From: a virus
Virus record (IMG/VR): IMGVR_UViG_3300020122_000238
Location: 124,001-188,000 of that record
Length of the DNA stretch: 64,000 nt
Reading direction: 5' to 3' (one strand)
The position numbers and the translations under genes were made by a program. Below, one piece after another: positions 3,365-31,430 of this stretch (its first letter is position 1; each line of letters opens with the position of its first letter). The notes under the pieces are model-generated. The model searched no databases, had not been told where the DNA came from, and saw only the letters and a list, made by a program, of their open reading frames with translations.

Positions 3365-5502
3365 TGCCCAGCTCGAAGAATCCGATCACCGTCGTCGTCC
3401 CCGGCCCCGGTAAGCTCCCGGCGAACGTGGCCAATGCTTCGGCGTTGCTCTTTCCGGCTGGCGGGGCGTCAGGGGTGAGCATCTCCAGCCACATCACGGA
3501 TCCGACCGACGCGCACATGTCGTCCGCGATCGGAGTGGCGGCAACCGACCCGGTGACTTCCGAACCTCTTCTGGAGAGTGCTGGCGGGATCATTCGCGGA
3601 GAGAGCGTCTTTGACTTCATCCGGCAGTTTAAAGACCTCGCTCCGATTCCCCCCAACACCCTGGGGTCGGACGACCCTACGACCCCAAACTCGGGGGCCC
3701 CTTACTGGGGGGATCCTATTTCTCTCACGGGTGTCAACGGGGCATGGTCTCAAGACTCGACACATGGTCGAGTGACTCGTTCCTTGATGCCTGCCTTCGG
3801 GGTGACGAACACCATCACGGGGTTTCTCTATCCCGCAGATCGTGGAGTGCTCGCGATCTACAAGACGACGGCCACGAACTTCTTTGACAGTGCCAACACG
3901 ACACTGGTCGGGGCTCTCTGGTTGGGGGGGTCTACGTCCCCTGCGTACAGCGTGCCCTACGCAGGCTTTGATGAGGCTCTTCGTGCCGTGGGGCAAGCGG
4001 ACTACAGCCCCAGCCAGTCGGGTATCGACACGATCACGCTGCAATATCGCGGCCCGCAGAGCACGAACAGCATGGGGGGTAACTATTCACCATACCCCCA
4101 AAACTTCTCTGCGTACCAGATCGCTGAGTACAGATACTCCTTCAACATTGCTTCGGGGGACAATGGAAGCTACCTCCTGATTCATTGGAAGGAGTCCTAC
4201 GCGACTACCCTTGCGTCCATTCAGCCGGCTGGGTTGACGTCGTTGACGTTCGTCGAGGCCAACTGTTATTCGGCGACTCCGTCGTCCTCCTTCTTCGAGA
4301 ACGTCATTCGGACGAGTATCTACGCTGATGCGACGGCAACTCTCCCGACAAGTGTGTCTCTCACCACGGCACCCGCGGGTACAGTGACAACTGCGCTGAC
4401 TTCCGGCGTGCCTTACTACAACAGCTCGAACCTCGCATTCACGATCACAGGGATCGCCAACAATTTGTTCGCGAACTCCTACTACACGAATACCAATGTA
4501 ACCTTGGCGGTGCCCCAAGGTTATACCTCGACCACTACGCCGATTGCGATCGACTGGTCAGATTTTGGGGGTCCCGTTCATGCGTTCGACCTTTTTGCGT
4601 CGCCCTCCTACATCTTCAATAACGCGACTTCTTCGTCCTTTTCCAATGGGAATCCCCCGATGCCTGGCACGGTCGTGAAGTTCAACGGCGTTGCACTTCA
4701 GGTCCTTGGGTCGAGTCCACAATGGCCACACGCCGTGATCCGCCTTCAATACCAGGCAGCATTTCGGTCTCCCTTGGTGGTGCAAAGCACGGAGAAGTAC
4801 ATGTACAACTCCCTGTCCTTGCCCGCGTCAACGAACACGCTTGAGCTTTTCAGCGACGAAGTCTATCGCCATGTGGGTTCATTCACGGCGGCATCGTCCA
4901 CCACCCCCATCATCCCGGTGGGCGGGAACAAGTACACCTCTGCCACTGTGATCACGTCCAACAACGGTGAACTCCAGTGCAGTCTTGGGTACTTGACGTA
5001 CCCTAGCGTCAACTACACGTCAGGGTACTTCCCGGCGACGGGTCCGGATTACGCGGCTGTCTTCTCTGGTGATTCTTCTACCCATATCCGCCGGTACATC
5101 CGTGCCTTCGATACGGGATTTCCGACCAGCACCGGCAAGCTCAGGCTACGGGGGTTGAACCCAGCCGACTTTGCTTCTGGGGGTGTCGCGTATACCGGAG
5201 CTGAGGTCGCCGACCACCCCGGAGGTGCCATCGTTCAGGTTAAGGTTCCTGGGGTCACGGGATGGCTGGACGTGGGGCGAGCCAAGGGAGATCCCGACCT
5301 CACCACGGTGGACTTCCATGGGTGCCGTACCCGGCTCACCATCTCCCCTACGATTGTGGAGAATGTGTATGTGGAGTATGACACGACCCTCCCCACCGTG
5401 AACAATGGGAGCGGGCGCTACCTGATCTTCGTTCGAGTGAGCTACATCAAGAGCACGGGAAACGTGCGAGTTCTGTCTGAACTCGAATGGACAGCGGAAT
5501 GA
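3364..5502 (+). CDS. Virion structural protein, likely fibre or appendage
   Basis: 712 residues with low charge and very high Ser/Thr/Tyr/Asn, typical of beta-rich phage appendage proteins. Near the N terminus, SSHITDPTDAHMSSAIGV resembles the 'DPTxAHxASAI' segment common in tail fibre proteins. The start overlaps the preceding stop by one base. No catalytic motif was seen. The structural role comes from composition and context. Confidence 0.65.
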   Translation: MPSSKNPITVVVPGPGKLPANVANASALLFPAGGASGVSISSHITDPTDAHMSSAIGVAATDPVTSEPLLESAGGIIRGESVFDFIRQFKDLAPIPPNTLGSDDPTTPNSGAPYWGDPISLTGVNGAWSQDSTHGRVTRSLMPAFGVTNTITGFLYPADRGVLAIYKTTATNFFDSANTTLVGALWLGGSTSPAYSVPYAGFDEALRAVGQADYSPSQSGIDTITLQYRGPQSTNSMGGNYSPYPQNFSAYQIAEYRYSFNIASGDNGSYLLIHWKESYATTLASIQPAGLTSLTFVEANCYSATPSSSFFENVIRTSIYADATATLPTSVSLTTAPAGTVTTALTSGVPYYNSSNLAFTITGIANNLFANSYYTNTNVTLAVPQGYTSTTTPIAIDWSDFGGPVHAFDLFASPSYIFNNATSSSFSNGNPPMPGTVVKFNGVALQVLGSSPQWPHAVIRLQYQAAFRSPLVVQSTEKYMYNSLSLPASTNTLELFSDEVYRHVGSFTAASSTTPIIPVGGNKYTSATVITSNNGELQCSLGYLTYPSVNYTSGYFPATGPDYAAVFSGDSSTHIRRYIRAFDTGFPTSTGKLRLRGLNPADFASGGVAYTGAEVADHPGGAIVQVKVPGVTGWLDVGRAKGDPDLTTVDFHGCRTRLTISPTIVENVYVEYDTTLPTVNNGSGRYLIFVRVSYIKSTGNVRVLSELEWTAE

Positions 5503-6138: not shown

Positions 6139-9100
6139 ATGACAAATCTCGGCAGCGGCGTTTCTCGGGTTCTGGACCCCACTGGAACTTCCTACACAGA
6201 GGTGATCTGGCAACAGGGAAAGCCCCCGATGGATGCCGATCTGAACCTCCTCCAGGAGCTTTCGCAGAACTTCTGTCGGCAGATCGTCATGCGTGGCACG
6301 CCGAGTGGGTGGCTCAGCAATGAGACCAACGCGACGGAAGACTACGTGACCAACTCGATCTGGTCGAACTGGTTCCAGTTCGGTCGGCAGAGGACGGGGG
6401 AGAAAGCGGCCATCGAGTGGGCAGCCGTCAACGGTTGGCTTGTGCCGGTCATGGGTACGAAGACGGGGACGCCGCCGGGCAATCCGGACGATGTCAACAC
6501 CTGGAATGTCATCGCCCTGGATCCGCCTCCCTCGAACTCGGGGGACTTCCGGATCGACTACGTCTTCATGGAGGTGTGGCAGGCTCGGATCCCGACCAAC
6601 CCATCGACGCTCAACAAGCCCGCTGCAAACTCGGTCTACCGCTACGGCAACGTGGAAGGTGGGTTCACTTTCCTCACGGACGACCTCATCGACCCGGCTC
6701 TCGGGTTCGAGACCACGCAGCGTGTCCAGCTCCAGTACCGGATCCGGGTGGTCAAGGGGCTCGTGGGGCTCACGAGCTACCCGTCGGGATTCGATCCTGT
6801 GGTCGTGAAGGCGCAGGGCGGAGCGACGACGCCTTCGAGCTATGTCTTCACGAACATGCGGAAGGACCTCGGGGATGCAGGTTTGTGGCGAGCTGGCGAT
6901 GGGGTGCCCTCCAATGCCTTCGGGACGACTGACGGCTATGTGTACGCGATCCCCATCGCGTCGATCTTCCGTCGCAACTCGGTCGCCTGGAACGGGGACC
7001 CGGCACAGAACCTCAATGGAGCCTTCAACCGCAACACGACGGCGGTTGATCGGACGGGGATCAGGACCTTCTCGACGACGGCCACGCTGGCGTTGGACCT
7101 CTCGGCTTCGGCCGTCTCGATCCAGCTCGTGTCCTCCTCGAACATCCCCCTGCCTCTCGCTCCGACGCTCCCTGTTCTCATTCAGATTGGGGACGAGATT
7201 CTCACCTACTCTTCTGTCTCGGGATCTCCTCCGATTCTGGGGGGCCTGACTCGGGGTGTGAACGGTTCGCGAGCGGAGACCCACAAGGCTGGGACCGTCG
7301 TCACCATTCTATCGGGACGCCCCGATGGGCTTTTCTCCGATCAGATCGCCGCGACGGACATCCTGGACCTCCGGCATATTGTGAACCCTAACGGGTTCAA
7401 CTACGACGTCCTTCTCAGAATGAACCTGGACAAGATGCTCCGGGGTCAGATGAGGGCGAACTGGAAGCGTTCTGGAGCTGGGCCGCAAGGTCCTTTCGTC
7501 TTCTACCAGGACAAGATCGTCAACGGGTCATCTGCACTTGGGGTCACCAAGCTTGATGGGCCGGACAACATTCGAACGGTTTTCTCGGATGCTGCTGTCA
7601 CACAAGCCGTCGAGCTTGTGGTGAAGGCGAACTCCGTTTCTTTGCCGGCAGCAGTGAACGTTGCATGGTCCTTGACCATGAACGCGAACCACGTCACGCG
7701 TTCGGTTACGAATACCTTCAGCCCACTCGATGTCATCTCGATCCCGGTAGCCCAGCTCAAGGCGGGGCTACCGGGAGGAGATTCTGATCAGATCCGATGG
7801 CTCACTGATTTCGAGGGGAATGCGGTTGTTCTTCGGATTGATGGGGAGTTGAATCCGATCCACGCGAGTCATTTCACGGTGACTCCGGCATCCCCGACTC
7901 CGACGGATGACTTGGTCATCACGCTTGCGTCAAGCTTCCCCTCGACGACCAAACAGATATACATTACGGCGCACGTTCAATACGGCCCGGGACGAGGACT
8001 GGCTCGCCGGCCGGATGCTTTGCACTCGCTGGCTTTCATCAATCCGAGCACGGAGCTGCTCCTTCAGACAGCCGCAGTCCCTCTGGCCAACCAGACGCTC
8101 CGGACTTCATGGCTTGCACTTTGGAGCAAGTTCCGTGGAGCGACCTACCAGGGTCTTCTCCCTGTCACGGCGGAAGCCTATGCCGACCTCGGAAGCAAGA
8201 CGGTGGCGATCACCCCCTTCCGTCGCATTGATTGGCCGGATGAGTTCCGGACGATGGATGGTACAGGAGCGAACCCGAACGCCACAACGTTCGTTACCAG
8301 CGTCAATGGTGCTAGCTCTGGCACCACGACATTGACCGACACTCTGGTCAATTTCACATCGTTGGGTGTTGTCGTGGGCGATGTGGTCACCATTCCCAGT
8401 GGTGTTCGCACAGGGAAGTACTTGGTGACTCAAGTGTCTCCTGGAGGAGACACCACGAAGATCGTGCTCGATCGTGCAACTGCTTCTGGGTTCACTTTCG
8501 ATTTCACGATCTCGCATGCTCAAGGAGTAATGCCTCTCCTCAAGTCTGACGGAGTCACTGCGAAGTGGACGACGACGGATCCTCTCCAGCTCTTCTCGGG
8601 TACGACTGAATCGACGGCTGCAACGAAGAATATCTACGTCACGATGCCCCGACACATGGTGCCTGGATGGGGAGCGTTTTACGTCCCTGTTCTTTGGCAA
8701 GACAACGGGGTCTTCGCTGAGGGAATTGACTTCATGTTGATCAGTCGGAAAGGGGGCTCTCCTTTCGCCGACAGCGACAAGAACTACTGCCCCTACTCGA
8801 ACGGACCGTTGACGTACGCTGCCTTCTCGACGTTGAACTTCAACCCTCCGGCAATGACGGCAACCTACAACGCGGCGTTCTCTTTTGGTGGGAAGACATT
8901 TGCGGGTATGCGGTTCTACACGGATACCCGAGGTCTCGGCCGAGAAGGGCTGGAGCTGCCTCCTTTCTACGGGATCTCCAGGTTGTTTGCGGTCTACGAA
9001 GCGGACGACTACAAGCTCAACGGGTCGGCGTACGACGCTACCACGAGGAATCTCACGGGCAGCGGGGCAACGAACCTCCTTCGGCAGAACTTCGCAGGTC

Positions 9101-28083: not shown

Positions 28084-28100
28084 CGGTGTAGACGTTTCGG
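28084..28100 (+). promoter_or_regulatory. CGGTGTA, 10 nt, ATG
   Basis: Starts the deoxynucleotidase-ThyA unit. Spacer GACGTTTCGG lacks a Shine-Dalgarno sequence. Confidence 0.65.
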
Positions 28101-28688: not shown

Positions 28689-28899
28689 GCTGCGAGATCG
28701 ATCTGGCGAGGTGTGTATTGATTCGAAGCTTGTGAGCTTCCTCTACGATCTCATGCGAGATCATCTTCCGCCGGGGGTTGTGGAGACCCTCGTTCAAAAT
28801 GCGTCGAATCCAGACGTGACCTACACAAATGGTTGGTTGGCATCTTATGCCGAAGACCTCGCCAAGAGACTCGGCGACACCCCCAAAAGGATCAAATGA
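28681..28899 (+). CDS. Small protein, unknown
   Basis: 72 residues, overlapping the deoxynucleotidase end by 8 nt and the ThyA start by 4 nt. Helical; no recognised family. Confidence 0.6.
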   Translation: MTELRDRSGEVCIDSKLVSFLYDLMRDHLPPGVVETLVQNASNPDVTYTNGWLASYAEDLAKRLGDTPKRIK

Positions 28900-30014
28900 A
28901 GCAATATCAAGACGCAGTCCGACACGTCCTCGCCAACGGAACTCGCAAGGAGAATCGGACTGGGGTCGATACCCTATCGACTTTCGGATACTACTACGAA
29001 GTGGACCTCGCCGAGGGTTTCCCGCTCCTCACCACCAAGAACGTGAGCTGGAAGAACATCGTCGTTGAGCTTTTGTGGTTCCTCTCGGGTCAAACCGATA
29101 TCGCGATCCTCAAGCGCCACGGTTGCAAGTTCTGGGATGCTTGGGCGGACCCTGATACGGGCAAGGTCCCGAGCGCCTATGGCAACTTCTGGCGCAAGTT
29201 TCCGGTTCATCGTCAAGATGATCCGAAATCCCCCGCAGTCCAATCCAGGGGATCAGCCATTTCGCCTGACTTCAACGACCAGATCGCCTGGGTGCTCGCT
29301 GAGATGCGCAGGAACCCCATGAGTCGGCGGATGGTCGTCTCGGCTTGGGCTCCCGGAAACGCACAGACGAGCAAGCTCCCGCCCTGCCACTGCCTCTACG
29401 TGTTCAACGTGCAGAACGCGGACCCGACGCCGAGGTACGTGCATTACGGACACAATAGGGGAGAGGACCCTGTGTGCGGCAACTACAATGACGGCCGACG
29501 GGTTCTGCCGCACGGGGAAGGGATGAAGTATCGGGAGGCATGGTGCCCCGACTGCCAGGTCCTTCTCAACGGAGCGCGAGGGGGCGATGTCTTCAAGAAC
29601 CCTCCTGTGGGGGACGACCCGCGTCGCCTCTGCCTTCATTTGACGCAGAGATCGCTGGATGTAATGCTTGGCGCACCGTACAACCTCGCCTCGTACGCGC
29701 TGCTCATCGAGCTGTTCAGCCGGTTCACGGGAATCAAGCCTGGGATTTTCGGGCATTCCGTGGTCGACATGCACATCTACTGTGCCAAGCCCGATGGGTC
29801 TATGGCCGAATACGACCACACCCCTGGTGCTCGCGAGCAACTTACGAGAGAGCCCCGTCTTCTTCCTCGCCTCATCATCGATGACAGTATCAAGGACCTC
29901 AGCGATATCGAACGCCTGATGGATCCATCGGTCACTACAGAAGAAATCATGGGTCTCTTCCGCTTGGAAGGGTACAATCCACACCCGGCCATCAACTTCA
30001 AAGTTGCAGTCTGA
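28896..30014 (+). CDS. thyA: Thymidylate synthase (ThyA) with an internal insert
   Basis: 372 residues against about 264 for E. coli ThyA. Makes dTMP from dUMP. PPCHCLYVFNV carries the catalytic Cys (about 164), LTQRSLDVMLGAPYN is the signature block, SVVDMHIY the substrate region and the end is HPAINFKVAV. Between the Cys motif and LTQRS there are about 70 extra residues with Cys pairs (VCGNYND, WCPDCQ), possibly a zinc knuckle. The ATG overlaps the previous TGA. A homing endonuclease gene follows at once. Confidence 0.92.
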   Translation: MKQYQDAVRHVLANGTRKENRTGVDTLSTFGYYYEVDLAEGFPLLTTKNVSWKNIVVELLWFLSGQTDIAILKRHGCKFWDAWADPDTGKVPSAYGNFWRKFPVHRQDDPKSPAVQSRGSAISPDFNDQIAWVLAEMRRNPMSRRMVVSAWAPGNAQTSKLPPCHCLYVFNVQNADPTPRYVHYGHNRGEDPVCGNYNDGRRVLPHGEGMKYREAWCPDCQVLLNGARGGDVFKNPPVGDDPRRLCLHLTQRSLDVMLGAPYNLASYALLIELFSRFTGIKPGIFGHSVVDMHIYCAKPDGSMAEYDHTPGAREQLTREPRLLPRLIIDDSIKDLSDIERLMDPSVTTEEIMGLFRLEGYNPHPAINFKVAV

Positions 30015-30032
30015 TGTTCACTGTGCTACGTC

Positions 30033-30911
30033 TTGGACGTGGTGACTGAAGAGTTCCTCCGAAAGAAGTACCTTGGCGATCTGCTCTCCCTTCGGCAGAT
30101 CGCTTCTCTTTGTGGTGTGGCTGTCGGCACGATCCGCTACCACATGAAGCGCTTTGGGATTCCTCGCCGAACGAAATCCGAGGCCCTCTCTGGGGACAAG
30201 AACCCCATGCATGGGAAGACGAAGTCAGATGCGACCCGGCGGAAAACCTCAGAGACCCTTCAAGTCACAAATAAGGATCCTGATGTAAAGGCCCGCCGAA
30301 GCGCCTCAACTTCGGGGATCCGAAATCCCATGTATGGGAAAACACACACAGAAGAGGTAAAGGAAGCCGCACACACAAGGCTGAATTCTATACGACACAC
30401 CCCAGACTTTGTGTCAGCTCAAAAAGCTGCAATGCAACGACTGGAAGTCCGCCAAGCTCTCTCGGAGAGCGCCTCCCAAAGAGTGGGGGAGAAGAACCCC
30501 TTCTTTGGGCATGAGCATAGCTCCGAGACCAAGCAGAAAATAGCTCAAGCCAACCGAGGTCGTTTTCTAGGGGAGAAGGGTTCCAACTGGAAGGGCGGGA
30601 AGACTCGACTCTCAGCTCTGATTCGGAACTCCGAACCGGCAATCCGATGGCGAAAGGATGTCTTCAAGAGGGACGCCTATACTTGCCAGAGGTGTGGTCA
30701 AATTGGGGGTCAACTACAGGCGGATCACATTCAACCTCTTGCGGGGCTCCTCGACGAGCACTGCATCAAGACCCTCGAAGATGCGTTCAACTGTCCCACC
30801 CTCTGGGATTTGACCAACGGTCGGACGCTCTGCATTTCGTGTCACAAAAAGACGCCTTCCTACGCGGGCAACTATCAGAAGAATTATCCTGCGTTCAAGG
30901 TCGCGGTGTAG
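30033..30911 (+). CDS. HNH homing endonuclease with NUMOD3 repeats
   Basis: 292 residues. N-terminal helix-turn-helix (LRQIASLCGVAVGTIRYHMK), three NUMOD3-type repeats (KNPMHGK, RNPMYGK, KNPFFGH), then an HNH domain (CQRCG...LQADHIQPL...CISCHKKT). Start uncertain: TTG 30033 or GTG 30039. Its last residues, YPAFKVAV, copy the C terminus of ThyA just upstream (INFKVAV). Likely a mobile gene inserted at the thyA 3' end. Confidence 0.85.
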   Translation: MDVVTEEFLRKKYLGDLLSLRQIASLCGVAVGTIRYHMKRFGIPRRTKSEALSGDKNPMHGKTKSDATRRKTSETLQVTNKDPDVKARRSASTSGIRNPMYGKTHTEEVKEAAHTRLNSIRHTPDFVSAQKAAMQRLEVRQALSESASQRVGEKNPFFGHEHSSETKQKIAQANRGRFLGEKGSNWKGGKTRLSALIRNSEPAIRWRKDVFKRDAYTCQRCGQIGGQLQADHIQPLAGLLDEHCIKTLEDAFNCPTLWDLTNGRTLCISCHKKTPSYAGNYQKNYPAFKVAV

Positions 30912-30920
30912 GCTTTCACA
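30904..30920 (+). promoter_or_regulatory. CGGTGTA, 10 nt, ATG
   Basis: The box is embedded in the last codons and stop of the HNH gene (GCGGTGTAG). It may have belonged to the original thyA 3' end before the HNH gene arrived. Confidence 0.65.
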
Positions 30921-31430
30921 ATGCGGGCTCTCGACTGCTTCCTTCTTGAGGTTATACCCACCGGGGCCCTTGCGTTTTTTGACTTGGACCTCGGGGTGTA
31001 CTATCGACTGGGGGAGTCGCCGGCTCATGGGTATCCCAACATCGTGGAAGGGGAGGTCCAGCGACGGATTCAACGTATATTGTGCGAGCCCGTCGCTGTC
31101 TTCGATAGGATACTTGAGGATCGCGCTATGGAAATGCTGTGGAGAGCAGCATTGTCAAATGGGTGGATCCCTGAAGACACCCTCACAACCTGGTTTGCAT
31201 CGCATGACCTCGATTACCAGGGGTGTCGTATAGTCCACAACGGCTGTGAATTGGCTGTTGTTACTCCTGATACTCTCGGGGGGATTATCAGAGCTGATGA
31301 CGTGCAAGACTCACCCTCTGCCAGAAACCTTCTCCTGTTCAACCTCAAGGGGGTTGTGAGGATTGGAGACACGGAAGCAGTTCAAAACGCACGTCCCACC
31401 TTGTGGGACAAACTTGGAGACGACCTATGA
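30921..31430 (+). CDS. Hypothetical protein
   Basis: 169 residues, no recognised family. Less G/C at codon position 3 than neighbours. First gene of a unit with 31427 and 31603. Confidence 0.6.
   Translation: MRALDCFLLEVIPTGALAFFDLDLGVYYRLGESPAHGYPNIVEGEVQRRIQRILCEPVAVFDRILEDRAMEMLWRAALSNGWIPEDTLTTWFASHDLDYQGCRIVHNGCELAVVTPDTLGGIIRADDVQDSPSARNLLLFNLKGVVRIGDTEAVQNARPTLWDKLGDDL

Follow-up and report, generated by a model that had tools for sequence, protein, structure and literature searches.

C-terminal replacement by endonuclease mORFs has been described in fungal mitochondria, in the atp6, atp9, cox2 and nad3 genes of Glomus sp. and in the atp6 gene of Allomyces macrogynus (PMC3630166). In the passages of that paper concerned with mORFs, the arrangement consists of a host-gene core, an inserted foreign C-terminal end, an endonuclease ORF and the displaced native C-terminal end, and the two ends of Glomus atp6 share 63.5% nucleotide and 91% amino-acid identity. 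The same succession of elements is proposed here for an HNH gene located behind the thymidylate synthase gene of a virus.

For phages, the nearest described systems share other features with this locus. The mob genes of T4-like phages are HNH genes located among nucleotide-metabolism genes, and co-conversion of flanking sequence is reported for free-standing endonucleases; in the pertinent passages of that review, however, the mob genes are described as intergenic, and a duplicated host-gene end is not mentioned (PMC2988022). In the case of Aeromonas phage Aeh1, the HNH gene mobE lies within the coding gene nrdA, as in one of the loci described below (L073), but the two nrdA pieces work together and the passages on this gene make no mention of a replacement end (PMC7344957). 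Homing endonuclease genes at phage exchange boundaries are likewise situated near essential genes and at the edges of sequence exchange (PMC10448857), whereas the relevant passages of that study do not describe duplicated host-gene ends and the word 'thymidylate' is absent from its text. Among the literature matches listed, which covered few subscription papers, none described a homing gene of a phage that carries the displaced end of its host gene.

The window (the whole 64-kb stretch of DNA that was analysed) belongs to a virus record of 275,300 bases, and all of the features concerned lie on its plus strand. The thyA gene (28896..30014; Pfam PF00303, E 1.7e-80) is complete from ATG to TGA and can be aligned to its last residue with seven relatives. 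Its 3' end in current use (29985..30014), which would be the inserted replacement end, has the same codons in L001, the nearest phage. A box-like GTGCTA-N10-GTG (30023..30041), by eye a weak and degenerate version of the GGTGTA type discussed below, precedes the start of a NUMOD3-HNH gene (30039..30911), whose GTG start codon is common to L001. The portion of the HNH gene conserved between phages extends to the motif N[YF]QKNY (30039..30887), and is followed by a ThyA-like tail, PAFKVAV and a stop codon (30888..30911), the proposed displaced native end of thyA. A GGTGTA box (30905..30910) overlaps this tail, and the ATG of gene 30921 (30921..31430; 169 amino acids, no Pfam or PHROG family) follows 10 bases further on; a homologue of this gene, 76% identical, was found among close relatives only in L001 and in L006, which is apparently the same phage.

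The thyA gene ends CCG GCC ATC AAC TTC AAA GTT GCA GTC TGA, encoding PAINFKVAV, and the HNH gene ends AAT TAT CCT GCG TTC AAG GTC GCG GTG TAG, encoding NYPAFKVAV, with the two codons for IN in the thyA end having no counterpart in the HNH tail. The first-pass annotation had called the codons of the two ends synonymous and had placed the GGTGTA box on the HNH tail; both observations were borne out. When P, A, F, K, V, A, V and the stop are paired between the two ends, seven codon pairs are synonymous and one is identical, and the box covers the last HNH codons. The locus differs from the mORFs in several respects. The latter are mitochondrial, with a LAGLIDADG ORF in atp6 and longer ends, and were compared with an element-free close relative and studied by RT-PCR (PMC3630166, mORF passages); the window has an HNH gene and an end of seven residues, and no empty allele was found for it. 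Moreover, the putative native end in the window forms the C-terminus of the endonuclease frame, an arrangement that the mORF passages of PMC3630166 do not state.

The window's HNH protein matches the Pfam NUMOD3 model at 71.7 bits (cut-off 20.4) and the HNH model at 19 bits, which is below the cut-off of 21.4, whereas the HNH domain of the relative in L003 scores 24.3 bits, above it. By its domains the gene is a free-standing endonuclease gene of the HNH/NUMOD3 homing type, and it is probably a selfish, DNA-cutting one. Homing HNH genes are often located in introns. A self-splicing intron in thyA could carry the HNH gene, with PAFKVAV as the last exon, and a thyA gene annotated as two pieces around a NUMOD3-related gene in Bacillus phage Bobb (L257, 1343-3393), where the split is probably due to an intron, lends this idea some support. 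Against it, the upstream thyA is complete to its conserved last residue, in frame with the end that adjoins the endonuclease gene, and a search for a group I intron RNA core found no Rfam family at gathering score in the window or in seven related loci. On the complete thyA and the null result in these eight sources, the HNH gene is taken to lie in neither an intron nor, presumably, an intein, and the intron reading was rejected as extremely improbable.

The association of the HNH gene with thyA is not confined to the window. Identity to the window's HNH protein is 93% in L001, 59-60% in L003 and 49% in L066, and the gene adjoins the 3' end of thyA in all four full-length family members among the matches listed, even though the L066 thyA matches that of the window in two pieces that are merely 33% and 25% identical. 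Nine of the 17 thyA-bearing records were searched whole; the HNH gene was found in four, two of which are apparently one phage, and was absent from five. Presence or absence next to a conserved gene is evident from L003, with the HNH gene after thyA, and L007, without it, where the same gene follows in both, a gene that we take from its appearance to be HU-like. In L066, a very different phage, the HNH gene sits between thyA and a gene that, judged by eye, is presumably a dihydrofolate reductase gene. The L066 HNH frame contains one in-frame TAA inside the HNH domain (near 3652), and the five other frame ends inspected are TAG or TGA, never TAA; the gene may be broken, or the codon may be recoded.

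Whether the likeness of the two ends in the window could have arisen by chance depends in part on the box. GGTGTA occurs 9-12 bases ahead of an ATG at 69 sites in the 275-kb record (52 on the forward and 17 on the reverse strand), as compared to four for a reversed control (two and two), and it probably acts as a promoter specific to the phage, giving mRNAs with no leader or almost none. The box, with an ATG some 10 bases on, precedes many genes, for instance at 28085, 30905, 32838 and 39360. Since the last V and the stop codon of the HNH gene are set by the box, part of the ThyA match is forced, and the HNH frame may simply have run to the first stop, furnished by the box together with the V, in which case PAFKVA would be a coincidence. 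In the corresponding frame, a stop codon is created by 50 of the 69 boxes, and in 39 of these cases 15 open codons precede it. The HNH end of L003 (KLV) also sits on a GGTGTAG box. The bases ahead of the box are another matter, with no strongly conserved position over the 69 sites, the highest being a C immediately before the box (0.49), and a promoter consensus was ruled out on this ground as the source of TTCAAGGTC. A pattern search with TTYAARGTNGCGGTGTAR for thyA ends that embed the box returned 37 stretches in viral_contigs, none of which could be read as a thyA end.

The strength of the match itself depends on the statistic, the chance rate lying between 6 per million and 1.3 per thousand. 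A profile built from 13 ThyA ends, that of the window included, gives the HNH tail a score of 20.6, a value reached by 13 of 41,896 C-termini (every stop preceded by at least seven open codons, in all frames, at loci of at least 1 kb, excluding L144-L180, which had been selected by an FKVAV pattern), namely 12 thyA ends and the window's HNH gene. Random tails reach this score in none of 1,000,000 cases, in 6 with the V fixed and in 33 with AV fixed, and these frequencies argue against coincidence, together with a ThyA-like end at the syntenic position in L001 and with analogues at other genes, both described below. End-anchored BLOSUM scoring is more favourable to chance, as the score of 27 between the HNH tail and the window's thyA end is matched by 67 of 50,000 shuffles, and is the joint best among 858 plus-strand ORF pairs of the window, tied with one pair of unverified ORFs; the best of 1002 minus-strand pairs scores 24. 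Chance aided by the box is considered quite improbable.

At the DNA level, the likeness of the window's thyA and HNH ends is not significant (342 of 5000 shuffles do as well), and the DNA of the HNH end is closer to the thyA end of L004 (3 of 5000 shuffles) than to the window's own. Flank-to-flank DNA comparison in the window, L001 and L003 gave no significant likeness, and TAARCTCCCA, common to both L003 flanks, is within chance (1306 of 5000 shuffles). Taken as a candidate second, diverged end of the host gene, PAFKVAV with its stop is significant by profile and moderate by shuffles, but not significant by DNA comparison.

The right-hand junction of the HNH gene is variable. Homology among the HNH proteins stops at N[YF]QKNY, beyond which the window has PAFKVAV, L001 has RST and L003 has KLV. 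The first-pass annotation had suggested that the tail may be the original thyA end, displaced by the incoming gene, and had held that related HNH genes away from thyA with the same FKVAV ending would speak against this. No such genes were seen, and a VAV ending is absent from 100 further HNH/NUMOD frames. The explanation is partly supported, in that the conserved portion of the HNH protein stops short of the tail and every full-length family member among the matches listed adjoins the 3' end of a thyA gene. It is weakened in that the relatives' HNH genes end in RST, KLV and KVTQ, so that ending like ThyA is no general trait of the HNH family (end-anchored scores of 4, 4 and 5 for L001, L003 and L066, none ThyA-like), and in that the final V and stop of the window's tail are supplied by the box.

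In L001, whose thyA is approximately 90% identical to that of the window, the order is thyA, the HNH gene ending NYQKNYRST, a 113-amino-acid gene (7015-7356) ending NLNLKFAV, and the homologue of gene 30921; within viral_contigs the 113-amino-acid gene was found only in L001 and L006. The end LNLKFAV, syntenic with the window's tail, is ThyA-like by shuffles (20 of 50,000), and by profile the top two places among 153 ends with the box in frame go to it and to the tail in the window, although by the same profile 2,565 (V fixed) or 26,736 (AV fixed) per million random tails do equally well. As the L001 end is homologous to the window's tail, it lends no independent support. The tail could instead be the 3' end of this other gene, an L001-like ancestor having lost the body of its 113-amino-acid gene so that the HNH frame came to read into the last codons of that gene, with LKFAV changing to FKVAV and the likeness to ThyA being convergence aided by the box. 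In keeping with such an origin, the window and L001 have the same DNA directly ahead of the box, [TC]TCAAnnTCGCGGTGTAGG, and the L001 HNH gene, after RST, terminates in an AGGAG that doubles as the probable ribosome-binding site of the 113-amino-acid gene, which suggests that junctions are fluid here. The PA that precedes FKVAV in the window is, however, missing in L001, the ancestral end would have had to be ThyA-like by chance, and in L003 and L066 the next gene directly follows the HNH gene, so that the 113-amino-acid gene looks like a later arrival. Derivation from this gene is considered unlikely.

A relative with thyA directly before gene 30921, as the first-pass annotation had proposed to look for, was not found; the search for 30921 covered close relatives in one collection, from which the records closest to the window may be missing, and returned homologues only in L001 and L006.

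The same arrangement was also looked for at genes other than thyA. In a comparison of 101 distinct HNH/NUMOD frames, each with up to four upstream ORFs and anchored at the ends, five frames scored at least 25, these being L249 (133), L073 (78), L082 (29), L120 (29) and the window (27). For mismatched pairs, 33 of 6060 (0.5%) reached this threshold, the top two with 42 and 44, and some of these perhaps involve truly related genes. Shuffles did as well, per 50,000, in no case for L249, L073 and L120, in 67 for the window, 280 for L082 and 1573 for L239, whose tail is not significantly like its upstream gene; without end anchoring, only L249 and L073 stand out. Among 12 frames from prokaryote genomes, one being that of L249, no further frame scores above 24. 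Inspection by eye of 10 annotated phage regions found no tail like the end of the upstream gene. An HNH tail that copies the end of the upstream gene is thus rare, yet clear in at least two loci.

The first of these, L249 (295-1351), is a bacterial MAG contig whose neighbouring genes are prophage-like. The start of the HNH gene lies within the upstream gene but in a different frame, its tail is a 41-residue copy, 59% identical, of the C-terminus of that gene, and its stop codon overlaps the next start (ATGA). In L073 (1037-4061), an HNH gene interrupts a glycosyltransferase gene; the end is duplicated, and there is an ATGA overlap at both junctions. Here the HNH gene ends ...EEKVFITSNGL (WHRDNVSKLPEEKVFITSNGL), the upstream glycosyltransferase part ends ...REKIFVTSNGI (WHRENIDHVLREKIFVTSNGI), and the remainder of the glycosyltransferase follows the HNH gene, with a second HNH frame at 4272-4847. 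An HNH-free relative, L260, 25% identical, has a single unbroken gene with ...DEKVFITANGI (YHRQDLPEIPDEKVFITANGI); by eye, 11 of its 21 residues there match the displaced end and nine match the inserted end, which is too close to decide between them. For the two remaining loci, the HNH end FEVARSVN in L120 (1-1177) compares with YEVSRSTN in an upstream tail-fibre-like gene cut by the contig end, and in L082 (1776-3351) the HNH end resembles that of an upstream Mu F-like head gene, a statistically weak case (280 of 50,000) in which the likeness continues beyond the stop. Outside thyA, the arrangement is clear in L073 and L249, and the fungal mitochondrial element in the passages of PMC3630166 is built in the way that the first-pass annotation had suggested for the window. 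These two unrelated, phage-like loci suggest that such genes can enter carrying a spare tail for the host gene.

Evidence for an exchange event within thyA comes from the divergence between the window and L001. Identity at fourfold sites is 0.17 for thyA codons 1-60 (n=23), 0.58 for codons 61-102 (n=19) and 0.75-0.92 for codons 126-371; the HNH gene follows at 0.81-0.93 and gene 30921 at 0.61-0.80, with two other genes at 0.73 and 0.64. The divergence thus has a sharp edge inside thyA, and the right-hand edge is not sharp. The edge fits what would be left by co-transfer (co-conversion) of the HNH gene with the downstream part of thyA; cleavage at thyA, like the direction and timing of the event, is inferred.

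Descent of the window's tail from thyA is judged the best explanation, and a moderately probable one, the good tail match and the analogues being weighed against the short match, the tie to the box, the weak L001 end and the empty site that was not found. In this displaced-end scheme, the HNH gene would be a free-standing homing-type endonuclease gene at home on the 3' end of thyA, and would have entered by recombination within thyA, bringing with it the downstream part of the donor thyA. ThyA would be left whole, with a new 3' end from the donor, whereas the last thyA codons of the recipient would be displaced beyond the insert, where they would continue the HNH reading frame and provide its last residues (PAFKVAV) and its stop codon, with the box of gene 30921 staying in place.

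More generally, it seems fairly likely that C-terminal replacement is the way in which some HNH homing genes of phages and prophage-like loci spread. Such elements would enter a gene at its last codons, provide it with a new 3' end, and adopt the displaced end as their own C-terminus and stop. Such a mechanism would allow both the host gene and the start signal of the next gene to survive, as seen in the ATGA overlaps on both sides in L073 and on the far side in L249, and in the promoter box of the window. If so, conserved coding sequence would be open to homing genes that have no splicing element, and the host gene would stay unbroken, in contrast to the placement of free-standing homing genes between genes in the T4 review (PMC2988022, passages on these genes), and protein C-termini would be swapped between phages. 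The displaced end would be a readable scar that marks the point of entry, and one that can be searched for automatically, because the tail of the homing gene comes to resemble its upstream neighbour's.

Another NUMOD3-type gene, which from its appearance we take to be of the GIY-YIG type, is located approximately 40 bases behind the thyA of another phage (L096, 2671-3546; also L097 and L098), so different types of homing gene may share a preference for the 3' end of thyA.
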